Shown: piece after piece, positions 22,050 through 33,147 of the stretch | Numbering within the stretch: position 1 is the stretch's first letter | How the letters are laid out: every line of letters begins with the position of its first letter | Source: Alphaproteobacteria bacterium | GTDB taxonomy: Bacteria > Pseudomonadota > Alphaproteobacteria > UBA9219 | Assembly (NCBI GenBank): GCA_028708035.1 | Contig: JAQVZU010000007.1 | Span: 1 to 39,738, forward strand | Length of the DNA stretch: 39,738 bases | Reading direction: 5' to 3' | Notes under the pieces: generated by a model | The model's database searches: none | What the model was told of the DNA's origin: nothing | What the model saw: only the letters and a program-made list of their open reading frames with translations | Made by a program: the position numbers and the translations under genes

Positions 22050-22477
22050 GCCAGACGGTCGGATGATCGCCTGTCACCTGAAATAAAGAAAATAGTTACT
22101 TGATTTTAAACACTTTTCTTTATTTCAGGTGACAGGAGGAAAGTCCGGGCTTCAGGGGAAAAGGGTGCCGGATAACGTCCGGTTGGGGCAACTCAAAGGA
22201 AAGTGCCACAGAAAACAAACTACCCGTATGGTTAACGTGCGGGAAAAGGTGAAAAGGTGCGGTAAGAGCGCACCGCACCTCCGGCAACGGAGGCGGCATG
22301 GAAAACCCCACCCGAAGCAAAACCGAATAGGAGCCGCAAAGCGCGTTTCGACGCGCGCCGCTTTTTCCCCGCGAGCGGCTCGGGTTGGTTGCTTGAGGTG
22401 TTCGGCAACGAACGTCCTAGATGAATGATCGTCCGCCGCGCAAGCGGTGACAGAACCCGGCTTACAGACCGTCTGGC
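22050..22477 (+). ncRNA. rnpB: RNase P RNA (class A)
   Basis: P1 is formed by GCCAGACGGTC (22050-22060) and GACCGTCTGGC (22467-22477). The universal core segments are present: GAGGAAAGTCCGGGCT (from 22136), the AGTGCCACAGAAAACAAACTACC region (P10/J11-12, near 22201), AGGGTGAAAAGGTGCGGTAAGAGCGCACCG type helices, and near the 3' end the conserved ACAGAACCCGGCTTACAG element. It is the catalytic RNA that trims tRNA 5' leaders. A TACAAT box (22038-22043) precedes the start; the -35 is weak. The P3 position holds a perfect 23-bp helix (22070-22092 with 22114-22136, 21-base AU-rich loop), unusually long and uninterrupted. A T-run follows P1, so P1 itself acts as terminator. Confidence 0.95.
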
Positions 22478-22483
22478 TTTTTT
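22467..22483 (+). terminator. 3' end and T-run of RNase P RNA
   Basis: The 3' strand of P1 (GACCGTCTGGC) is followed at once by six T residues, the usual end of rnpB. The next gene is convergent and stops at 22522. Confidence 0.6.

Positions 22484-25299: not shown

Positions 25300-25300
<1 letters not shown>
24737..25300 (-). CDS. ribA: GTP cyclohydrolase II
   Basis: A 187-residue stand-alone RibA. Zinc site C-x10-C-x-C: HSECATGDILGSLRCDC (about residues 47-60). The catalytic RGQEGRGIGL loop, the GMDTYEAN motif and the C-terminal LLTNNPDKIEAL block are all present. It opens the imidazole ring of GTP to give the first riboflavin intermediate. The ATG at 25300 overlaps the stop of the aminotransferase gene (TGATG); a 12-residue longer reading is rejected for that reason. 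It is not fused to RibB, unlike in many alphaproteobacteria, so DHBP synthase must be elsewhere. Confidence 0.94.
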
Positions 25301-26526
<1,226 letters not shown>

Positions 26527-26702: not shown

Positions 26703-28244
26703 TTAAAGGCTTAACGAGGATTGTGTCTTTTCCCTAAAATTCAAATAGGCAGGCCTGAGCCTTGCCAGCCTTCGCGTCGCGCTTTTCATGACGCCTTTAA
26801 AAGCTTCTCTGAGCGACGTTTTCTTGTCGGAAGGACGCTTTTGTGGATCGATATTCATTGCCGTTGACGCGTGTTCTACCCCCTTGGAGCCTGTCTTCAA
26901 TTCGGCATCCGGGGCGGGTTTAAGCTTATCGAAAGCAGCACAAAGACGGTGGCATCCCGTTTCAAGCTTGTCTTTCCTTGCGGCGTAAGAAATCCGAATG
27001 GCCGGATCCTTTCCGCCGAATCCTTCGTTCGGGGTCACGGCCACCCTTTGAGTTTCCCATACGTACATTGCAAAATCATCGGCTGTCTCAATGACTGTGT
27101 TGGTGTCAGGCCTTATCTTCCCGATGGCGTTTTCTACACCTTGGAAAATATAAAAGGCGTTTGGTTTGCTCTTTGGGGGGCGTCCAAGCTTGTTGCCGAG
27201 AATTTTCTGGGCCGCATCGCGATGATCGCGAAGCGTTTTGATCCAGTCTGATCTATCGCGATCTTCCTCAAGAGCTGCTCTTGCTCCTTCTTGAGCGACT
27301 GAATTAGGGTTGTTTGTCGATTGCTCTGAAAATTTTATCATCGCTGCAATGAGCCAAGCCGGGCCTGCTCCGTACCCGGTGCGTAATCCCGTCATTGCAT
27401 CGGATTTTGAGCTAGCGCTTGCGATAAGAATGGGATTCTTAAGTTCAATTGGGTCTTCAGGGTCGCAAACCACCTGTGCGATGTCGCAAAATTTGTCCTC
27501 TTCGTTGAGGATGAGATACTCGTAAACGTTGTCCGAAAGAATCCCTGTATCGGGAAAATCTTTCATGACTGTTGCGATTTCGCGAAGTTCCTGTTTGGTG
27601 TAGAGCGCTCCCGTCGGGTTGCTTGGGGAATTCAGGATGACCCATTTGACAACCTGATCGTTGTCCTTGGCGGTTTGAAGAGCCTCCCTCAGTTGGGCGG
27701 CGGTCATTTTGTAATCGTTGTCCCATTCGGTCTCGACCTCGATCATTTTGCCGCCGAAGTATTCTACAACGGGCTTATAAGTGACCCAACCCGGAACCCC
27801 CATGATAACGCTGTCGCCATCGTTTAGCGTGACGGCAAAGGCATTAAAAAGAATCTGCTTGCCGCCAGCGCCGCCCATAACTTCGTCCTGTTCATAGTGC
27901 AACTTGTTATCGCGACGGAACTTGTGAGCGACCGCAGCCCGGAACTCTTTTGTGCCGCCTGCGGGTGTGTAGCCAGTCATGTTATTTTTGAGGGCCGAAA
28001 TCATGGCGTCGATAACATGTTTCGGAGTCGGGAAGTCCGTACCGTTGAGTTGTCCCAAGGAAAGGTCGCAGGCGTCTTTTTGTTCTTCCGGAGGCAGGGC
28101 CTTGTATAAATTGCCAATTTTGATTGTCGCGGACCCGGGCATTGCCATGATGGCATCGTTCAGAAATAAATCGCCGGAAGGACGCGTAAAGCGATTGGGG
28201 GAAAGGAAGGAATCTTCAAAAGGGACTGCAGCGTCGACGGACAT
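26703..28244 (-). CDS. Divergent class I aminotransferase with basic C-terminal tail
   Basis: A 513-residue paralogue of the adjacent aspartate transaminase, with the same landmarks: YTPAGGTKEFRAAV, MGGAGGKQILFNAF, NSPSNPTGALYTKQEL, LSDNVYEYLIL, and the PLP Lys in ASSKSDAMTGLRTGYG. About 40 residues precede the normal start. Roughly 70 follow the conserved RISYAARKDKLETGCHRLCAAFDKL end. The tail is rich in Lys/Arg (motif ATRRLARLRPAYLNFREK) and may be amphipathic. GGAG lies ahead of the ATG at 28244. The substrate is unknown; the divergent neighbour is DAHP synthase, so an aromatic or prephenate substrate is possible. It is transcribed toward aatA and ribA. Confidence 0.82.
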   Translation of the reverse strand: MSVDAAVPFEDSFLSPNRFTRPSGDLFLNDAIMAMPGSATIKIGNLYKALPPEEQKDACDLSLGQLNGTDFPTPKHVIDAMISALKNNMTGYTPAGGTKEFRAAVAHKFRRDNKLHYEQDEVMGGAGGKQILFNAFAVTLNDGDSVIMGVPGWVTYKPVVEYFGGKMIEVETEWDNDYKMTAAQLREALQTAKDNDQVVKWVILNSPSNPTGALYTKQELREIATVMKDFPDTGILSDNVYEYLILNEEDKFCDIAQVVCDPEDPIELKNPILIASASSKSDAMTGLRTGYGAGPAWLIAAMIKFSEQSTNNPNSVAQEGARAALEEDRDRSDWIKTLRDHRDAAQKILGNKLGRPPKSKPNAFYIFQGVENAIGKIRPDTNTVIETADDFAMYVWETQRVAVTPNEGFGGKDPAIRISYAARKDKLETGCHRLCAAFDKLKPAPDAELKTGSKGVEHASTAMNIDPQKRPSDKKTSLREAFKGVMKSATRRLARLRPAYLNFREKTQSSLSL

Positions 28245-28580
28245 GGAAGAACTCCAAAAACTGTAAGAAATACAGCCGGGTTATATTCTTCCCCTTGGGG
28301 ACGGACAATGCAGCCAAATGCTTTCAACATCAAATTCCACGAAAAAACCCCAATTTTATTTGCTTTCAAAAACAGGGCCTGTTATTTTTAAATGATGACA
28401 ACGAAGGAATTCCATATAGGTGTGCTTGCTGCCGACTCATCGCGCGGCGCGTACATTTGCGGGTACTTTTATTGGTTCCGGTAGCCCCGGAAGCACACAC
28501 TCGATTCTCCCCCCACATCGTTAATCGGATCATTATAAAAGCCTGTTAAGAACGGGCGACCATCATTAAAGGCGAACGAC
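28245..28580. promoter_or_regulatory. Divergent control region between aminotransferase and DAHP synthase
   Basis: A 336-base gap between divergent genes. It contains an inverted repeat TCCCC-TT-GGGGA (28290-28301), a short palindrome ACAGGGCCTGT (28372-28382), a leader-peptide frame (28392-28484), a hairpin TTCCGG-TAGCC-CCGGAA (28476-28492) and a hairpin GCCTGTT-AAG-AACGGGC (28541-28557) before the DAHP synthase ribosome-binding site AAAGGCGA. I see no T-run terminator. No promoter is certain; TTGCTT at 28360 with TATTTT 17 bases on would start too late for the leader frame. Confidence 0.6.
28392..28484 (+). CDS. Aromatic-rich leader peptide upstream of DAHP synthase
   Basis: A 30-codon frame: two ATG codons (28392, 28395), then a polar stretch, ending Y-I-C-G-Y-F-Y-W-F-R and a TAG stop. 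Six of the last ten residues are aromatic, five of them in a row, with all three aromatic amino acids present. The stop codon sits in the loop of the hairpin TTCCGG-TAGCC-CCGGAA, and the frame ends 96 bases before the DAHP synthase start. This is the layout of ribosome-dependent attenuation, in which stalling at aromatic codons alters folding of the downstream RNA. No strong Shine-Dalgarno sequence precedes the ATG (AGGG about 14 bases upstream), and no classical terminator follows, so control may act on translation. Function is inferred from sequence and position. Confidence 0.62.
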   Translation: MMTTKEFHIGVLAADSSRGAYICGYFYWFR

Positions 28581-29948
28581 ATGACAAAAATGGATATCTG
28601 GACTCCCGGCAGTTGGCACACAAAGCCCGTCAGTCAAATGCCGACATACGCCGATGCCAAGCAGCTTACCGAAGTCGAAGTTCGATTGGCCAAGCTGCCG
28701 CCGCTCGTCTTCGCGGGCGAAGCGCGCAATCTGAAAAAGCGGCTGGCGCAGGTCGCAAGGGGCGAGGCCTTTCTTTTACAAGGAGGCGACTGCGCCGAGA
28801 GCTTCGCGGAATTCTCAGCCAATAATATTCGCGACACCTTCCGCATTATCCTGCAAATGGCCATTGTGCTTATTCAGGGGGGCGGCGTCCCTGTGGTGAA
28901 AGTTGGACGCATGGCGGGGCAATTCGCCAAGCCACGATCCTCGGACAGCGAAACGCGCGACAGCAAGACGTTGCCAAGCTATCGCGGAGACATCGTGAAC
29001 AGCCTCGACTTCACCGAAGATGACCGCGAACCCGATCCCGAGCGCATGCTCATGGTCTACAACCAGTCCGCCGCGACGCTGAACCTGCTTCGGGCGTTCG
29101 TGCAAGGCGGCTATGCCGATTTACACCGCGTTCATCAGTGGAATCTGGATTTTGTAGAACAGAGCTTGCAGGGAAGCCGATACCGTGAACTCTCCAACCG
29201 CATTGCCGAAACGCTGGACTTTATGGCGGCGTGCAACATCACGTCCGAAACGGCGCCCCAGCTTCGCGAAACTGAATTCTACACCTCGCACGAAGCGTTG
29301 CTGTTGCCGTATGAGCAGGCGCTGACCCGCATCGACAGCACGACGAACGACTGGTACGACGTTTCCGCCCACATGTTGTGGATCGGCGAGCGCACGCGCC
29401 AGCCTGATTCCGCACATGTAGAATTCCTTCGTGGAGTCAAAAACCCCATCGGCCTTAAGTGTGGTCCGAAAATCACGGCAGACGATTTGATGCGCCTTGT
29501 CGAAATCCTGAATCCCGACAACGAACCGGGCCGTTTGACGCTCATCTCGCGCATGGGCCACGACAACGTGGGGCGCACGCTTCCGCCGCTTCTTCGCGCG
29601 CTCAAGAAGGAAGGCCGGATGGAAGCCTGGTGCTGCGACCCGATGCACGGCAACACGCACGCATCGGCAAGCGGTTACAAAACCCGCAACTTCAGCGATA
29701 TTTTGGCCGAAGTTCGCGGCTTCTTTGACGCCTGCCGCGCTGAAGGCGTGCCTGCGGGCGGAGTCCATCTGGAGATGACCGGCAAAGAGGTCACCGAGTG
29801 CATCGGCGGCGTATCCGCCGTTACGGATGCGGATCTTGGCGACCGCTACGAAACTCATTGCGACCCGCGCCTCAACGCAACGCAAGCTTTGGAGCTGGCG
29901 TTTCTCATCGCGGATTACGTAAAGCAGGGACGAAAGCCTGTCGCATAA
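28581..29948 (+). CDS. 3-deoxy-7-phosphoheptulonate synthase, class II
   Basis: A 455-residue class II (plant/AroH-type) DAHP synthase, full length. Landmarks: [25 protein letters not shown] (Cys of the metal site), [12 protein letters not shown], the Arg/Lys-rich [44 protein letters not shown] (metal-binding His), GVHLEMTG and the ETHCDPRLN ending. It condenses phosphoenolpyruvate and erythrose 4-phosphate, the first step of the shikimate pathway. The ATG at 28581 has AAAGGCGA upstream. The aromatic leader peptide indicates end-product control of expression. The divergent aminotransferase may act in the same pathway. Confidence 0.96.
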
Positions 29949-30063: not shown

Positions 30064-30993
30064 ATGGCGCTTCGCGTCAAAAAAGAGGGGGTTTGGGGCG
30101 CGCTGGTCTTGTGCGGCACGCTTTTGGGGTGCATCCGCGAAGATGCCCTTTATCCGATATTGAGCGCATTGCCCACTCCGCCGCAGACCTTGGCTCCGGT
30201 TGTCGCGGCGGAACAAACGCCGGTCGAAGTTCAGCCCACCCCCGAGGAGCCCGAGAAGGAATCGCCAAAAACAACAGTTCCCGCAAAAGTTGATGCCCCG
30301 CCGCTGCAGGAAAAAGAACCCGTCCAGCAACCCCTTGAAATTCCTTTAAGCTCTGAGGCTCAACCCCTGAGCCCCGCCCAGCCCCCAGCCCCAAGTCCCG
30401 AGCCTCCGCAAAAAACCGTGAAGAAAATTCGGGGCATCCACACGTATTTTGTTAATCGCGAGGTCCGTTCGGACAACGTCAGGATGTTTCCGCGATGGAC
30501 GGGAATGCTTGCGCGATACAGCGCCGAGAACCATACGCTCGACAAAGTCTGCGGTTCCGAGCGCGACCAACCTTGCAAGCTCAAGGAGTGGAAGTCCTTT
30601 CTCGAAGGCCTTCGCAACGCGCCGCTGATGGAGAAGATTGTCGAGGTTAACCGGCTCGTCAACAAGTATCCTTATGTGGACGACATTCTGAATTACTGGG
30701 AAACGCCGTATGAATTCCAGCGCAGGAGTGGCAATTGCAAGGATTATGCGATTGCAAAATACCTGTCTTTGCGGGCAATAGGCGTGCCGGACGATATCAT
30801 GCGCATCACGGTGCTGCGCGATCTGAACCTCGGAGGGGTGATCCACGCCGTCCTGGTTGTCACTGTGGATGAAAAGAACTATATATTGGATAACCAGATC
30901 AAGCAGGTCGTTTCCACCGATAAAATCTACCATTACGTGCCGATATACTCTATTAACGAAGAGCACTGGTGGCAGCATTTCATGCTGGATTAG
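30064..30993 (+). CDS. BTLCP/LapG-type transglutaminase-like cysteine protease, lipoprotein
   Basis: A 309-residue protein. The N-terminus has a lipobox-like end (ALVLCGTLLGC, Cys near 23), then about 100 residues of Pro/Glu/Gln-rich linker (25-120). The BTLCP (PF06035) domain spans about 125-309. The catalytic triad is Cys225 (SGNCKDYA), His261 (GVIHAVLVV) and Asp276 (YILDNQ). LapG of Pseudomonas is the known member: it cleaves large adhesins in the periplasm unless held by LapD. The usual family has a cleavable signal peptide; an anchored form with a long flexible linker is a variant. GGGGAG precedes the ATG. The next gene begins 18 bases on. Confidence 0.87.
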   Translation: MALRVKKEGVWGALVLCGTLLGCIREDALYPILSALPTPPQTLAPVVAAEQTPVEVQPTPEEPEKESPKTTVPAKVDAPPLQEKEPVQQPLEIPLSSEAQPLSPAQPPAPSPEPPQKTVKKIRGIHTYFVNREVRSDNVRMFPRWTGMLARYSAENHTLDKVCGSERDQPCKLKEWKSFLEGLRNAPLMEKIVEVNRLVNKYPYVDDILNYWETPYEFQRRSGNCKDYAIAKYLSLRAIGVPDDIMRITVLRDLNLGGVIHAVLVVTVDEKNYILDNQIKQVVSTDKIYHYVPIYSINEEHWWQHFMLD

Positions 30994-31011: not shown

Positions 31012-33147
31012 ATGACGAGTACACAAAGCGCGATGGCAAGCGAGATGATGCCGAAGCTCAAAAGCCCGTCTATCAACCCCAAGGTGCTGATCGCGATTGT
31101 CGCTGCGATTGCGATTATCGGAAGCGCGGCTGTGATGCGCTTTGTGGCGTCCGAGAAAGATCGCGAACTTCTCGCATGGCAAAACCGTCTTGCGCTGATC
31201 GCCGACAGCCGCGCGGCGGACGTGGAAAGCTGGCTCGATAGGCACTCCAAGGAACTCGGTGGCGTGGCTTCGAATCCGTCGCTCCAGCTTTATCTTAGCG
31301 AGCTTTTAAGTGAGGCCGATGCCAGAACTGCCGAAGACCCCGCCCAAGCCGTCTTCCTGCGCAATCTGCTTTCCATGACCGCCGACCGTCTCGGCTTTGT
31401 CGAACCTGCGTCGAAAGAACTCAAATCCGTCGCTGCCAACGTCCGCCCGGCCTCAGGCGTCGGTATCGCTATACTCAAGAATGGCAAAATCCTCGTTGCT
31501 ACATCCGGCCTCGCGACAATTCCCCAAGAGCTGGCCGCAAAAATCGAGGCTGCGCCGAAGGACAAACCTTCTCTCATCGACATTTTTACAACTGATCGAG
31601 GCAAGTCCCGCATCGGTTGGGTGGAGCCGATCTACCCGATACAGGCCGACGACTCTGCGCAGCCTATAGGCCGTTTGGTGGCTATAAAGAACGTCGATGC
31701 CGATCTTTTCAAGCTTCTGCATCATCCCGGCGCCACTGAGAAAACGCTTGAAGCGGTTCTGCTTCGCCGGGAGGGCGACAACGCCGTGTACTTGTCCCCG
31801 CAGGAAAACAAGGATGCCGCTACTGAGCTTGCGCTTACCACGCCGGACCTCGATGCCGCTTTCGCTCTTCAATCTCCCGGAAACTTCGGCGAGAAAAAAG
31901 ACGCGCAGTCCCAAAGAACGCTCATGACAAGCCGCCTGATAGCCCATTCGCCATGGGTCATGATGCTTCGGATCAACCGCAATCAGGCTCTAGCGCTGAG
32001 CGAGCTGCGCTTGCGCCAGATTCAGTTTAGCCTTTTCTTCGCGCTGCTAGCGATGATTGGCGGTATCGTGGCGGTCTGGTATTACGGCACATCGAAACGG
32101 ACGTTGCTTTTGTCCGCCGAAACCAAGCGCATGGCCAAGCAAGCGGCAGCTCAAGAGAAGCTTCTACGCGTTGTCGCCGATAACCAGCTTGAACCCATCG
32201 TTATTGCCGATGAAAACAACATTGCCCACTTCGCAAACGCCAAGGCCGCGAAAGCGTTTCGTCTCGGCTTTCCGTCCGACGTTATTGGCAAAACTCTCGA
32301 TGCTCTAATGGGCGCGGCGTATGCCGAAGGCTACGAAAAAGCGAACGAAACGGCTTTGTCGACCAACAAGCCCTTTGTCCGCACGTGGACGATTGAGGAG
32401 GAAGGCAATAAACGGACTATCATGTCTGAGCACATTCCACTCGTCCACGTTCCCGTCGATGGCCTTACGATCCCGACGCCGGGTGTCCTGATGATCGATC
32501 AGGACATTACAGCAATCGTGAAAGAGCGTGAACACAGCGAGCGTATTTTGCGGCAGATGGTGAACATGCTGATTACTATTGTCGACCGGCGAGATCCGTA
32601 CGCCGCGAGCCATTCGGCCTGCGTGGCTCTGGTCGCGAAATCCGTGGCAGCCAATCTCGGCCTCGACCGCCTTTTGATCGAGTCGGCGGAAACAGCGGGC
32701 AACCTGATGAACATCGGCAAGATTCTGGTGCCCAGCGAAGTCCTGACCAAACGCGGCGCGCTGACCGAAGACGAGATGAAATGGATACAGCAATCTCTCA
32801 AGAGCAGCGTCCGCCTGATCGAGAAGATCGAATTCGACGGCCCGGTCGTCGATACGTTGCGCCAAGCTCGTGAACGTTGGGATGGCGCGGGTCCGCTTGG
32901 CTTGAAGGGAGAAGAAATTCTGATTACCGCGCGCATCATCGCGGTCGCGAACGCTTTTGTCGGCATGATAAGCCTCCGCGCATGGCGCGAGGCGTTGAGC
33001 ATCGACGAAGCGATCAAGAATCTCTTGGCCCAGATCGAAACGCAGTTTGACCGGCGTGTGGTGGTCGCGTTGGCCGACTATGTCGAAAACAAGCAGGGCA
33101 GGGAAGCCGTTTCGAAGCTCATTCCAACCGAGCCTGTGTCGGCTTAA
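31012..33147 (+). CDS. Membrane sensor with PAS and degenerate HD-GYP domain
   Basis: A 711-residue protein. Membrane segment 1 lies at about 23-43 and segment 2 at about 343-362; the roughly 300-residue periplasmic part between them looks like a double-Cache sensor. A PAS-like domain (about 385-500) follows, then an HD-GYP-type domain (about 515-690). The active site is broken: the HD pair of the HDIGK motif is Met566-Asn567 (NLMNIGK), and the HHExxDGxGYP motif reads ARERWDGAGPLGL (619-631), with HH replaced by Ala-Arg and the Tyr lost. The HS histidine of DPYAASHS remains. It cannot be a normal c-di-GMP phosphodiesterase; it may bind ligand or partner instead. It starts 18 bases after the LapG-like gene, and its stop overlaps the stop of the convergent pilus gene. 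Confidence 0.86.
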   Translation: MTSTQSAMASEMMPKLKSPSINPKVLIAIVAAIAIIGSAAVMRFVASEKDRELLAWQNRLALIADSRAADVESWLDRHSKELGGVASNPSLQLYLSELLSEADARTAEDPAQAVFLRNLLSMTADRLGFVEPASKELKSVAANVRPASGVGIAILKNGKILVATSGLATIPQELAAKIEAAPKDKPSLIDIFTTDRGKSRIGWVEPIYPIQADDSAQPIGRLVAIKNVDADLFKLLHHPGATEKTLEAVLLRREGDNAVYLSPQENKDAATELALTTPDLDAAFALQSPGNFGEKKDAQSQRTLMTSRLIAHSPWVMMLRINRNQALALSELRLRQIQFSLFFALLAMIGGIVAVWYYGTSKRTLLLSAETKRMAKQAAAQEKLLRVVADNQLEPIVIADENNIAHFANAKAAKAFRLGFPSDVIGKTLDALMGAAYAEGYEKANETALSTNKPFVRTWTIEEEGNKRTIMSEHIPLVHVPVDGLTIPTPGVLMIDQDITAIVKEREHSERILRQMVNMLITIVDRRDPYAASHSACVALVAKSVAANLGLDRLLIESAETAGNLMNIGKILVPSEVLTKRGALTEDEMKWIQQSLKSSVRLIEKIEFDGPVVDTLRQARERWDGAGPLGLKGEEILITARIIAVANAFVGMISLRAWREALSIDEAIKNLLAQIETQFDRRVVVALADYVENKQGREAVSKLIPTEPVSA

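Follow-up and report, generated by a model that had tools for sequence, protein, structure and literature searches.

DAHP synthase is the common entry enzyme of aromatic synthesis, and its control is usually ascribed to repressors and isozyme feedback. In the stretch of DNA analysed here (the window, 39,738 nucleotides of the alphaproteobacterial contig JAQVZU010000007.1), a class II DAHP synthase gene is preceded by a short open reading frame ending in a run of aromatic codons, raising the question of whether entry into the shikimate pathway is controlled here by a leader peptide. A first-pass annotation of the window had read this arrangement as attenuation following the logic of the trp or phe leaders, and the comparison with relatives, in which the frame, the aromatic codons and two hairpins are conserved, supports that reading. 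On these sequences, the features listed below are likely explained by ribosome-mediated attenuation, with the charging of aromatic tRNAs controlling class II DAHP synthase.

28360..28365, + strand: -35-like hexamer TTGCTT, with a TTG core there in 17 of 17 relatives
28383..28388, + strand: -10-like TATTTT; its end is 6 nt upstream of the leader ATG (28395)
28395..28484, + strand: leader-peptide open reading frame, predicted leaderless, 29 codons, MTTKEFHIGVLAADSSRGAYICGYFYWFR-stop; a conserved 27-31 codon frame in 17 genomes
28467..28481, + strand: putative regulatory aromatic codons and Arg, TTT TAT TGG TTC CGG (F-Y-W-F-R)
28476..28492, + strand: hairpin 1, TTCCGG-TAGCC-CCGGAA, with the leader stop in its loop; 95% of alignment cells paired
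28493..28540, + strand: C-rich, G-poor (rut-like) linker, from base composition over 17 genomes
28541..28557, + strand: hairpin 2, GCCTGTT-AAG-AACGGGC, arms 28541-28547 and 28551-28557, at a conserved position
28568..28572, + strand: Shine-Dalgarno-like AAAGG of DAHP synthase, from the sequence; a similar purine-rich site occurs in most relatives
28581..29948, + strand: class II DAHP synthase gene (TIGR01358, PF01474), the proposed regulated gene

The downstream gene is a class II DAHP synthase, as first described, scoring 712.5 bits against TIGR01358 (cut-off 614.7) and 701 bits against PF01474, and its AAAGG (28568-28572) stands 8 nt before the ATG at 28581. The frame at 28392-28484, which encodes MMTTKEFHIGVLAADSSRGAYICGYFYWFR-TAG, stops 96 nt before this gene. 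TAC at 28464-28466 extends the aromatic run to five consecutive codons, Y-F-Y-W-F, followed by Arg and then by the stop (TAG, 28482-28484), which lies in the loop between the hairpin 1 arms TTCCGG (28476-28481) and CCGGAA (28487-28492). Rechecked on the sequence, the 30-codon frame, its run of aromatic codons and the two hairpins all stand where the first-pass annotation placed them. The leader frame has no Pfam match, and the leader region has no Rfam match at the gathering score or at E values up to 5.

Alignment of the upstream regions of relatives had been set beforehand as the test of the proposal, and it revealed that a short frame bearing aromatic codons is conserved at this position. 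DAHP synthase is present in 78 of 96 related genomes, with 80 further named loci, many of them from the same assemblies. The leader precedes the gene in 17 of the 29 DAHP-synthase-bearing genomes of the source order, comprising 16/20 in the source family, 1/4 in a second family and 0/5 in a third; 12 genomes of the order have DAHP synthase without the leader, which is therefore dispensable. The leader stop is usually about 80-120 nt upstream of the gene in the 17 genomes, an insertion in one of them (G019) widening this gap to about 210 nt.

In these 17 genomes the leader comprises 27-31 codons. The beginning of the peptide varies and its end is conserved, most often as GGAFxYG(W)FYWFR-stop or something close to it. 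At codons -3 to -5, counted from the stop, F, Y or W is encoded in 48 of 51 cases, the three residues interchanging between genomes, and the exceptions are one Ser (AGC), one Ala and one Gly. Other residues with T-first codons (Leu, Ser and Cys) are absent from these positions, the sole Ser being AGC. This swapping indicates selection on aromatic codons rather than on one exact peptide, and at the three codons before Phe-Arg it fits the suggestion that all three aromatics are sensed at once. The general arrangement of an attenuator is thus present: a short upstream frame, predicted to be translated, with codons for the end products clustered before its stop, and class II DAHP synthase downstream in all 17 genomes.

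The leader ATG stands at a fixed distance from a promoter. A TAnnnT hexamer ends 6 nt (11 genomes) or 7 nt (5 genomes) before it in 16 of 17 genomes, and elsewhere between 0 and 24 nt each distance has it in 0 or 1 genomes; the exception, G006, has TATAGG ending at 7 nt. The spacing from the -35 TTG to the -10 is 17 nt, or 16 nt in one best-scoring reading (17/17 genomes). There is no Shine-Dalgarno-like motif before the leader ATG in 16 of 17 genomes, and the match in G006 overlaps its -10. Because the -10 and -35 spacing is fixed relative to the leader ATG, the leader mRNA is predicted to be leaderless, with transcription starting on that ATG. The first-pass annotation had placed the start at 28392; its frame stands, and the translation start is probably the second ATG, at 28395, since transcription would start there by the promoter spacing that 17 relatives share. 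A transcript beginning downstream of the leader, which had been named as an objection to the attenuator, is not what this promoter position predicts.

The leader stop follows directly on the 5' arm of hairpin 1, within its loop, in 15 of the 17 genomes. In G013 (L022) the stop comes one codon later (YWFRS-TAA), still in the loop and with the stem kept, and G017 shows a one-base shift of register. The stem, UUCCGG/CCGGAA, is almost invariant, the variants seen by eye being a G-U pair in G015 and the shifted stem TTTCGG/CCGAAA in G017; it is too invariant for covariation to be assessable, so its support consists of conservation and these two variant stems. The conserved stop-codon hairpin bears out the earlier description of the TAG as lying in the loop of a 6-bp stem.

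Hairpin 2, described earlier as a 7-bp hairpin before the DAHP synthase ribosome-binding site, is present, and relatives keep its position while its stem sequence changes, as in CUGUU/AACGG, CGGCU/AGCCG, CCCUC/GAGGG, CCAGU/AUUGG and CCGAU/AUCGG. Its loop lies within 4 nt of the median position in 14 of 17 genomes, compared with a mean of 3.6 and a maximum of 8 in 300 shuffling trials. The inner pairs form in 79 of 85 cases versus 45.4 with arms swapped between genomes, a contrast which, as the stems were picked by minimum energy, shows changed sequence with pairing kept and is not a significance test. The folding energy is only modestly below that of shuffles (mean z -0.9, Fisher p 0.004).

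The linker between the two hairpins has a marked base bias. The 38 nt after hairpin 1 contain 33% C and 9% G over the 17 genomes, versus 27% C and 28% G at 117 control loci without the leader peptide, giving a C/G ratio of 3.5, and C is at least three times G in 13 of 17 leaders versus 3 of 117 controls. No conserved pairing of the linker with the ribosome-binding site or elsewhere was found in the 17 genomes.

No intrinsic terminator was found on the + strand between the leader and DAHP synthase, nor any T-run after hairpin 2 in relatives, in agreement with the earlier remark that no U-rich terminator is visible. Classical alternative pairing (2:3 and 3:4) was rejected, since, when the 3' arm of hairpin 1 was tested for duplexes with the leader, with hairpin 2 plus the ribosome-binding site and with the coding sequence, and the 5' arm of hairpin 2 for duplexes with the linker and the leader, no pair of segments clearly beat shuffles (mean z -0.39 to +0.53). 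For region 2 and the arms of hairpin 2, no alternative partner is conserved in the leader, the linker, the ribosome-binding site or the first 75 nt of the gene. Pairings of CAUACGCACGC, which is conserved, with GCG...UAUG in the leader or with GCGCGCGAAACCGG, conserved in the gene, are visible by eye in some genomes; they are absent in the source genome (G000) and unsupported overall. Sequestration of the ribosome-binding site by the linker was also rejected, the linker pairing with the initiation region worse than shuffles do (mean z +0.7). The element therefore has the hairpin over the leader stop that corresponds to the 1:2 hairpin of trp- and phe-type leaders, and was not classed as a classical trp-type attenuator because the other two defining features, an antiterminator (2:3) pairing and an intrinsic terminator with a U-tract, were tested and not found.

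Translation of the leader, stalling within it, the sign of control and the involvement of Rho, all of which we infer, would combine as follows. Transcription would start on the A of the leader ATG, and a ribosome would load directly at the 5' end and trail RNA polymerase closely. Under poor charging of Phe-, Tyr- or Trp-tRNA, this ribosome would slow on the Y-F-Y-W-F codons, its front edge would cover the 5' arm of hairpin 1, and expression of DAHP synthase would follow. With all three aromatics plentiful, the ribosome would reach the stop and leave, hairpin 1 would close and the C-rich linker would be left bare, allowing Rho to load and to terminate transcription before or early in the DAHP synthase gene.

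A C-rich, G-poor, unpaired stretch is the hallmark of Rho loading sites, and such a stretch follows the leader stop here, as in leaders of the tnaC type. Of the two outputs that the first-pass annotation had suggested, translational and Rho-dependent, the tests weakly favour the second: Rho is the best candidate because the C-rich, G-poor, unpaired linker is conserved and neither a terminator, an antiterminator nor sequestration of the ribosome-binding site was found. If the element is an attenuator, Rho loading on the linker with termination before or early in the gene is the most likely output, with roughly an even chance of being correct. Most of the linker would stay exposed beyond a ribosome stalled at the aromatic codons, a weakness of this output, which requires the stalled ribosome to hinder Rho loading; such hindrance is plausible by analogy with tnaC, but the masking could be no more than partial. 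Hairpin 2 could be a place where the polymerase pauses; alternatively, given that exonucleases trim Rho-terminated ends (PMC7815308), it could remain as a stable 3' end.

The strongest competitor, although an unlikely one, is an output at translation, in which the position of the ribosome on the leader would refold the RNA and free or hide the ribosome-binding site of DAHP synthase, in the manner of the aroR leader of C. glutamicum. The lack of a terminator suits this mechanism, as does the position of hairpin 2, which in 15 of 17 genomes lies 17-33 nt upstream of the start codon, and aroR itself is called a translational regulatory leader peptide in PMC7356990. However, hairpin 2 in most cases ends short of the Shine-Dalgarno site, and both the poor pairing of the linker with the initiation region and the lack of a conserved alternative partner for region 2 and the hairpin 2 arms argue against such refolding.

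Nascent-peptide arrest as in TnaC, in which a small molecule, for instance one of the aromatic amino acids in free form, would be sensed via the ribosomal exit tunnel instead of through tRNA charging, is improbable. The conservation of the peptide's C-terminal end (FYWFR-stop) near the stop codon resembles TnaC, and a conserved Arg precedes the stop. Yet the codon of this Arg is fixed as CGG, which also forms part of the hairpin 1 arm, and the interchange of F, Y and W, together with the departing ends YWFRS (G013), FFYFG (G017) and YFYFR (G020), suits codon sensing better. In two of these departing leaders, FAYFYFR (L021, in G020) and GFFYFG (L024, in G017), the terminal Trp is lost and Phe and Tyr are kept; both genomes are without a trpE match above the curated cut-off, G017 being only 62% complete.

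Codon-sensing attenuation also agrees better with the distribution of the element than does a small leaderless mRNA acting in trans as peptide or RNA (as with peTrpL and rnTrpL), with attenuation incidental. A covariance model of the leader element (R1, 67 positions) detected 18 carriers among 33 genomes of the order, each with one copy, which stands directly before DAHP synthase in 17 of the 18. The remaining copy is an orphan without DAHP synthase downstream (L176, G032:C139, locus 565-627, E value 8.8e-6, ending ...AGFYFYGFR-TGA); it lies upstream of a tRNA-like sequence and seems degenerate, with no in-frame ATG over the stretch read, perhaps a relic from when DAHP synthase moved. Such an orphan, and a leaderless promoter geometry like that of S. 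meliloti rnTrpL, speak for a trans-acting RNA, but the near-constant position before DAHP synthase, the decayed look of the orphan and the lack of conservation in the N-terminal two thirds of the peptide in the 17 genomes make this reading highly improbable. Neither chance nor some unrelated conserved feature, be it protein-coding or a repeat, survives the comparison of relatives: short frames abound (91 with 20 or more amino acids overlap the 5.5 kb inspected), but 17 genomes share a fixed promoter, hairpin and spacing in one copy each.

Judged by its conservation, the leader is a real control element, far beyond chance, because the peptide end, the hairpin and the spacing recur in 16 other genomes. 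A motif search allowing two mismatches found the leader end once per genome carrying the leader; one stray additional 2-mismatch match was seen in the source genome (G000). Among 385 genomes sampled over the class under stricter filters, the covariance model found the element in three, all of the source order, and in 0 of 380 other genomes of the class. Frame scans found no comparable leader before DAHP synthase in Azospirillum, Nitrospirillum, Skermanella and the other families sampled. The expectation of a leader conserved in related alphaproteobacteria thus holds within one order (17/29) and fails as a general alphaproteobacterial feature as far as sampled, a wider distribution being rejected by both the frame scans of DAHP synthase upstream regions and the covariance model.

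In short motif scans, nothing convincing was found at trpE in 12 relatives with a canonical trpE, nor was a leader found before pheA (the prephenate dehydratase gene) of the source genome, so it is the entry enzyme that bears the mixed sensor. The source genome has no trpE above the curated cut-off, has trpB and keeps Trp in its leader. It also encodes a 618-aa fused chorismate-binding and glutamine-amidotransferase protein (G000:C18, L165 784-2640, minus strand), which scores below the curated cut-offs for TrpE, PabB and TrpE(G). If attenuation operates as proposed, a single RNA switch on one class II DAHP synthase could respond jointly to three amino acids, integrating at the shikimate entry the charging of all three aromatic tRNAs.

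Several known leaders share parts of this arrangement. The 1:2 hairpin of the E. coli trp attenuator spans the leader stop codon. As in the E. coli trp and phe attenuators, the putative regulatory codons here stand just before the leader stop and the first hairpin spans it; unlike them, the element has no conserved 2:3 antiterminator and no 3:4 terminator with a U-tract. The trpL leader of S. meliloti has aromatic codons near its end. It is an alphaproteobacterial leader at the start of the mRNA, with an aromatic-pathway gene, trpE(G), next, and its attenuator RNA starts with its AUG (PMC7298713, PMC10117765). Whereas trpL has 14 codons, senses Trp and uses a transcription terminator that makes the sRNA rnTrpL, the present leader has 27-31 codons with F, Y and W, no U-tract terminator and DAHP synthase as its putative target.

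In E. coli tnaC, a stalled ribosome masks a rut site (PMC8429421), and the mdtU leader stops 106 nt before its gene (PMC7815308), compared with 96 nt here, so that these leaders likewise consist of a frame followed by a rut stretch or a Rho-terminated 5' untranslated region. They respond to free tryptophan or spermidine, whereas several codon-sensed aromatics are proposed here, and Rho, demonstrated at tnaC and mdtU, is a candidate at the DAHP synthase leader.

The idea of a leader peptide before DAHP synthase is not new, as aroR of C. glutamicum is a Phe-Tyr-Phe leader of the DAHP synthase gene aroF (Neshat et al. 2014, via PMC11802643 and PMC7356990), whose expression is raised when the amino acid is limiting, in response to Phe and not Tyr (PMC11802643). 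The present element differs in including Trp codons and in preceding a class II enzyme, and with the organisms in different phyla no sequence relation is expected. The first-pass annotation knew of no described case with this sequence, which stands for the sequence family, while the broader idea has its precedent in aroR. The family, its leaderless start, three-way codons, class II target and lack of an intrinsic terminator are undescribed in the open literature as far as searched; an earlier prediction of the element is possible in Neshat 2014 or Vitreschak 2004. We tentatively suggest, while leaning towards doubt, a previously undescribed class of attenuator in which the position of the ribosome on a mixed Phe/Tyr/Trp leader, in a leaderless mRNA, is coupled to Rho termination through a rut-like linker. 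The element would offer a compact conserved test case for how leaderless leader mRNAs attenuate and whether codon-sensing leaders can use Rho in place of an intrinsic terminator, and model R1 provides a new searchable leader-RNA family for a poorly studied, mostly uncultured order.

The surroundings of the DAHP synthase gene include a tandem pair of mutually related class I/II aminotransferase genes on the minus strand, at 25300-26526 and 26703-28244. They run divergently from DAHP synthase and share an intergenic region with the leader promoter, and the second of the pair carries some 75 additional residues at its C-terminal end. At 22051-22480 is a bacterial RNase P RNA of class A (Rfam RF00010, 325.9 bits). 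Just 3' of DAHP synthase, a LapG-like transglutaminase-type cysteine protease (30064-30993) is followed by an HD-domain (HD-GYP-like) protein (31012-33147), the pair possibly forming a c-di-GMP adhesion module.
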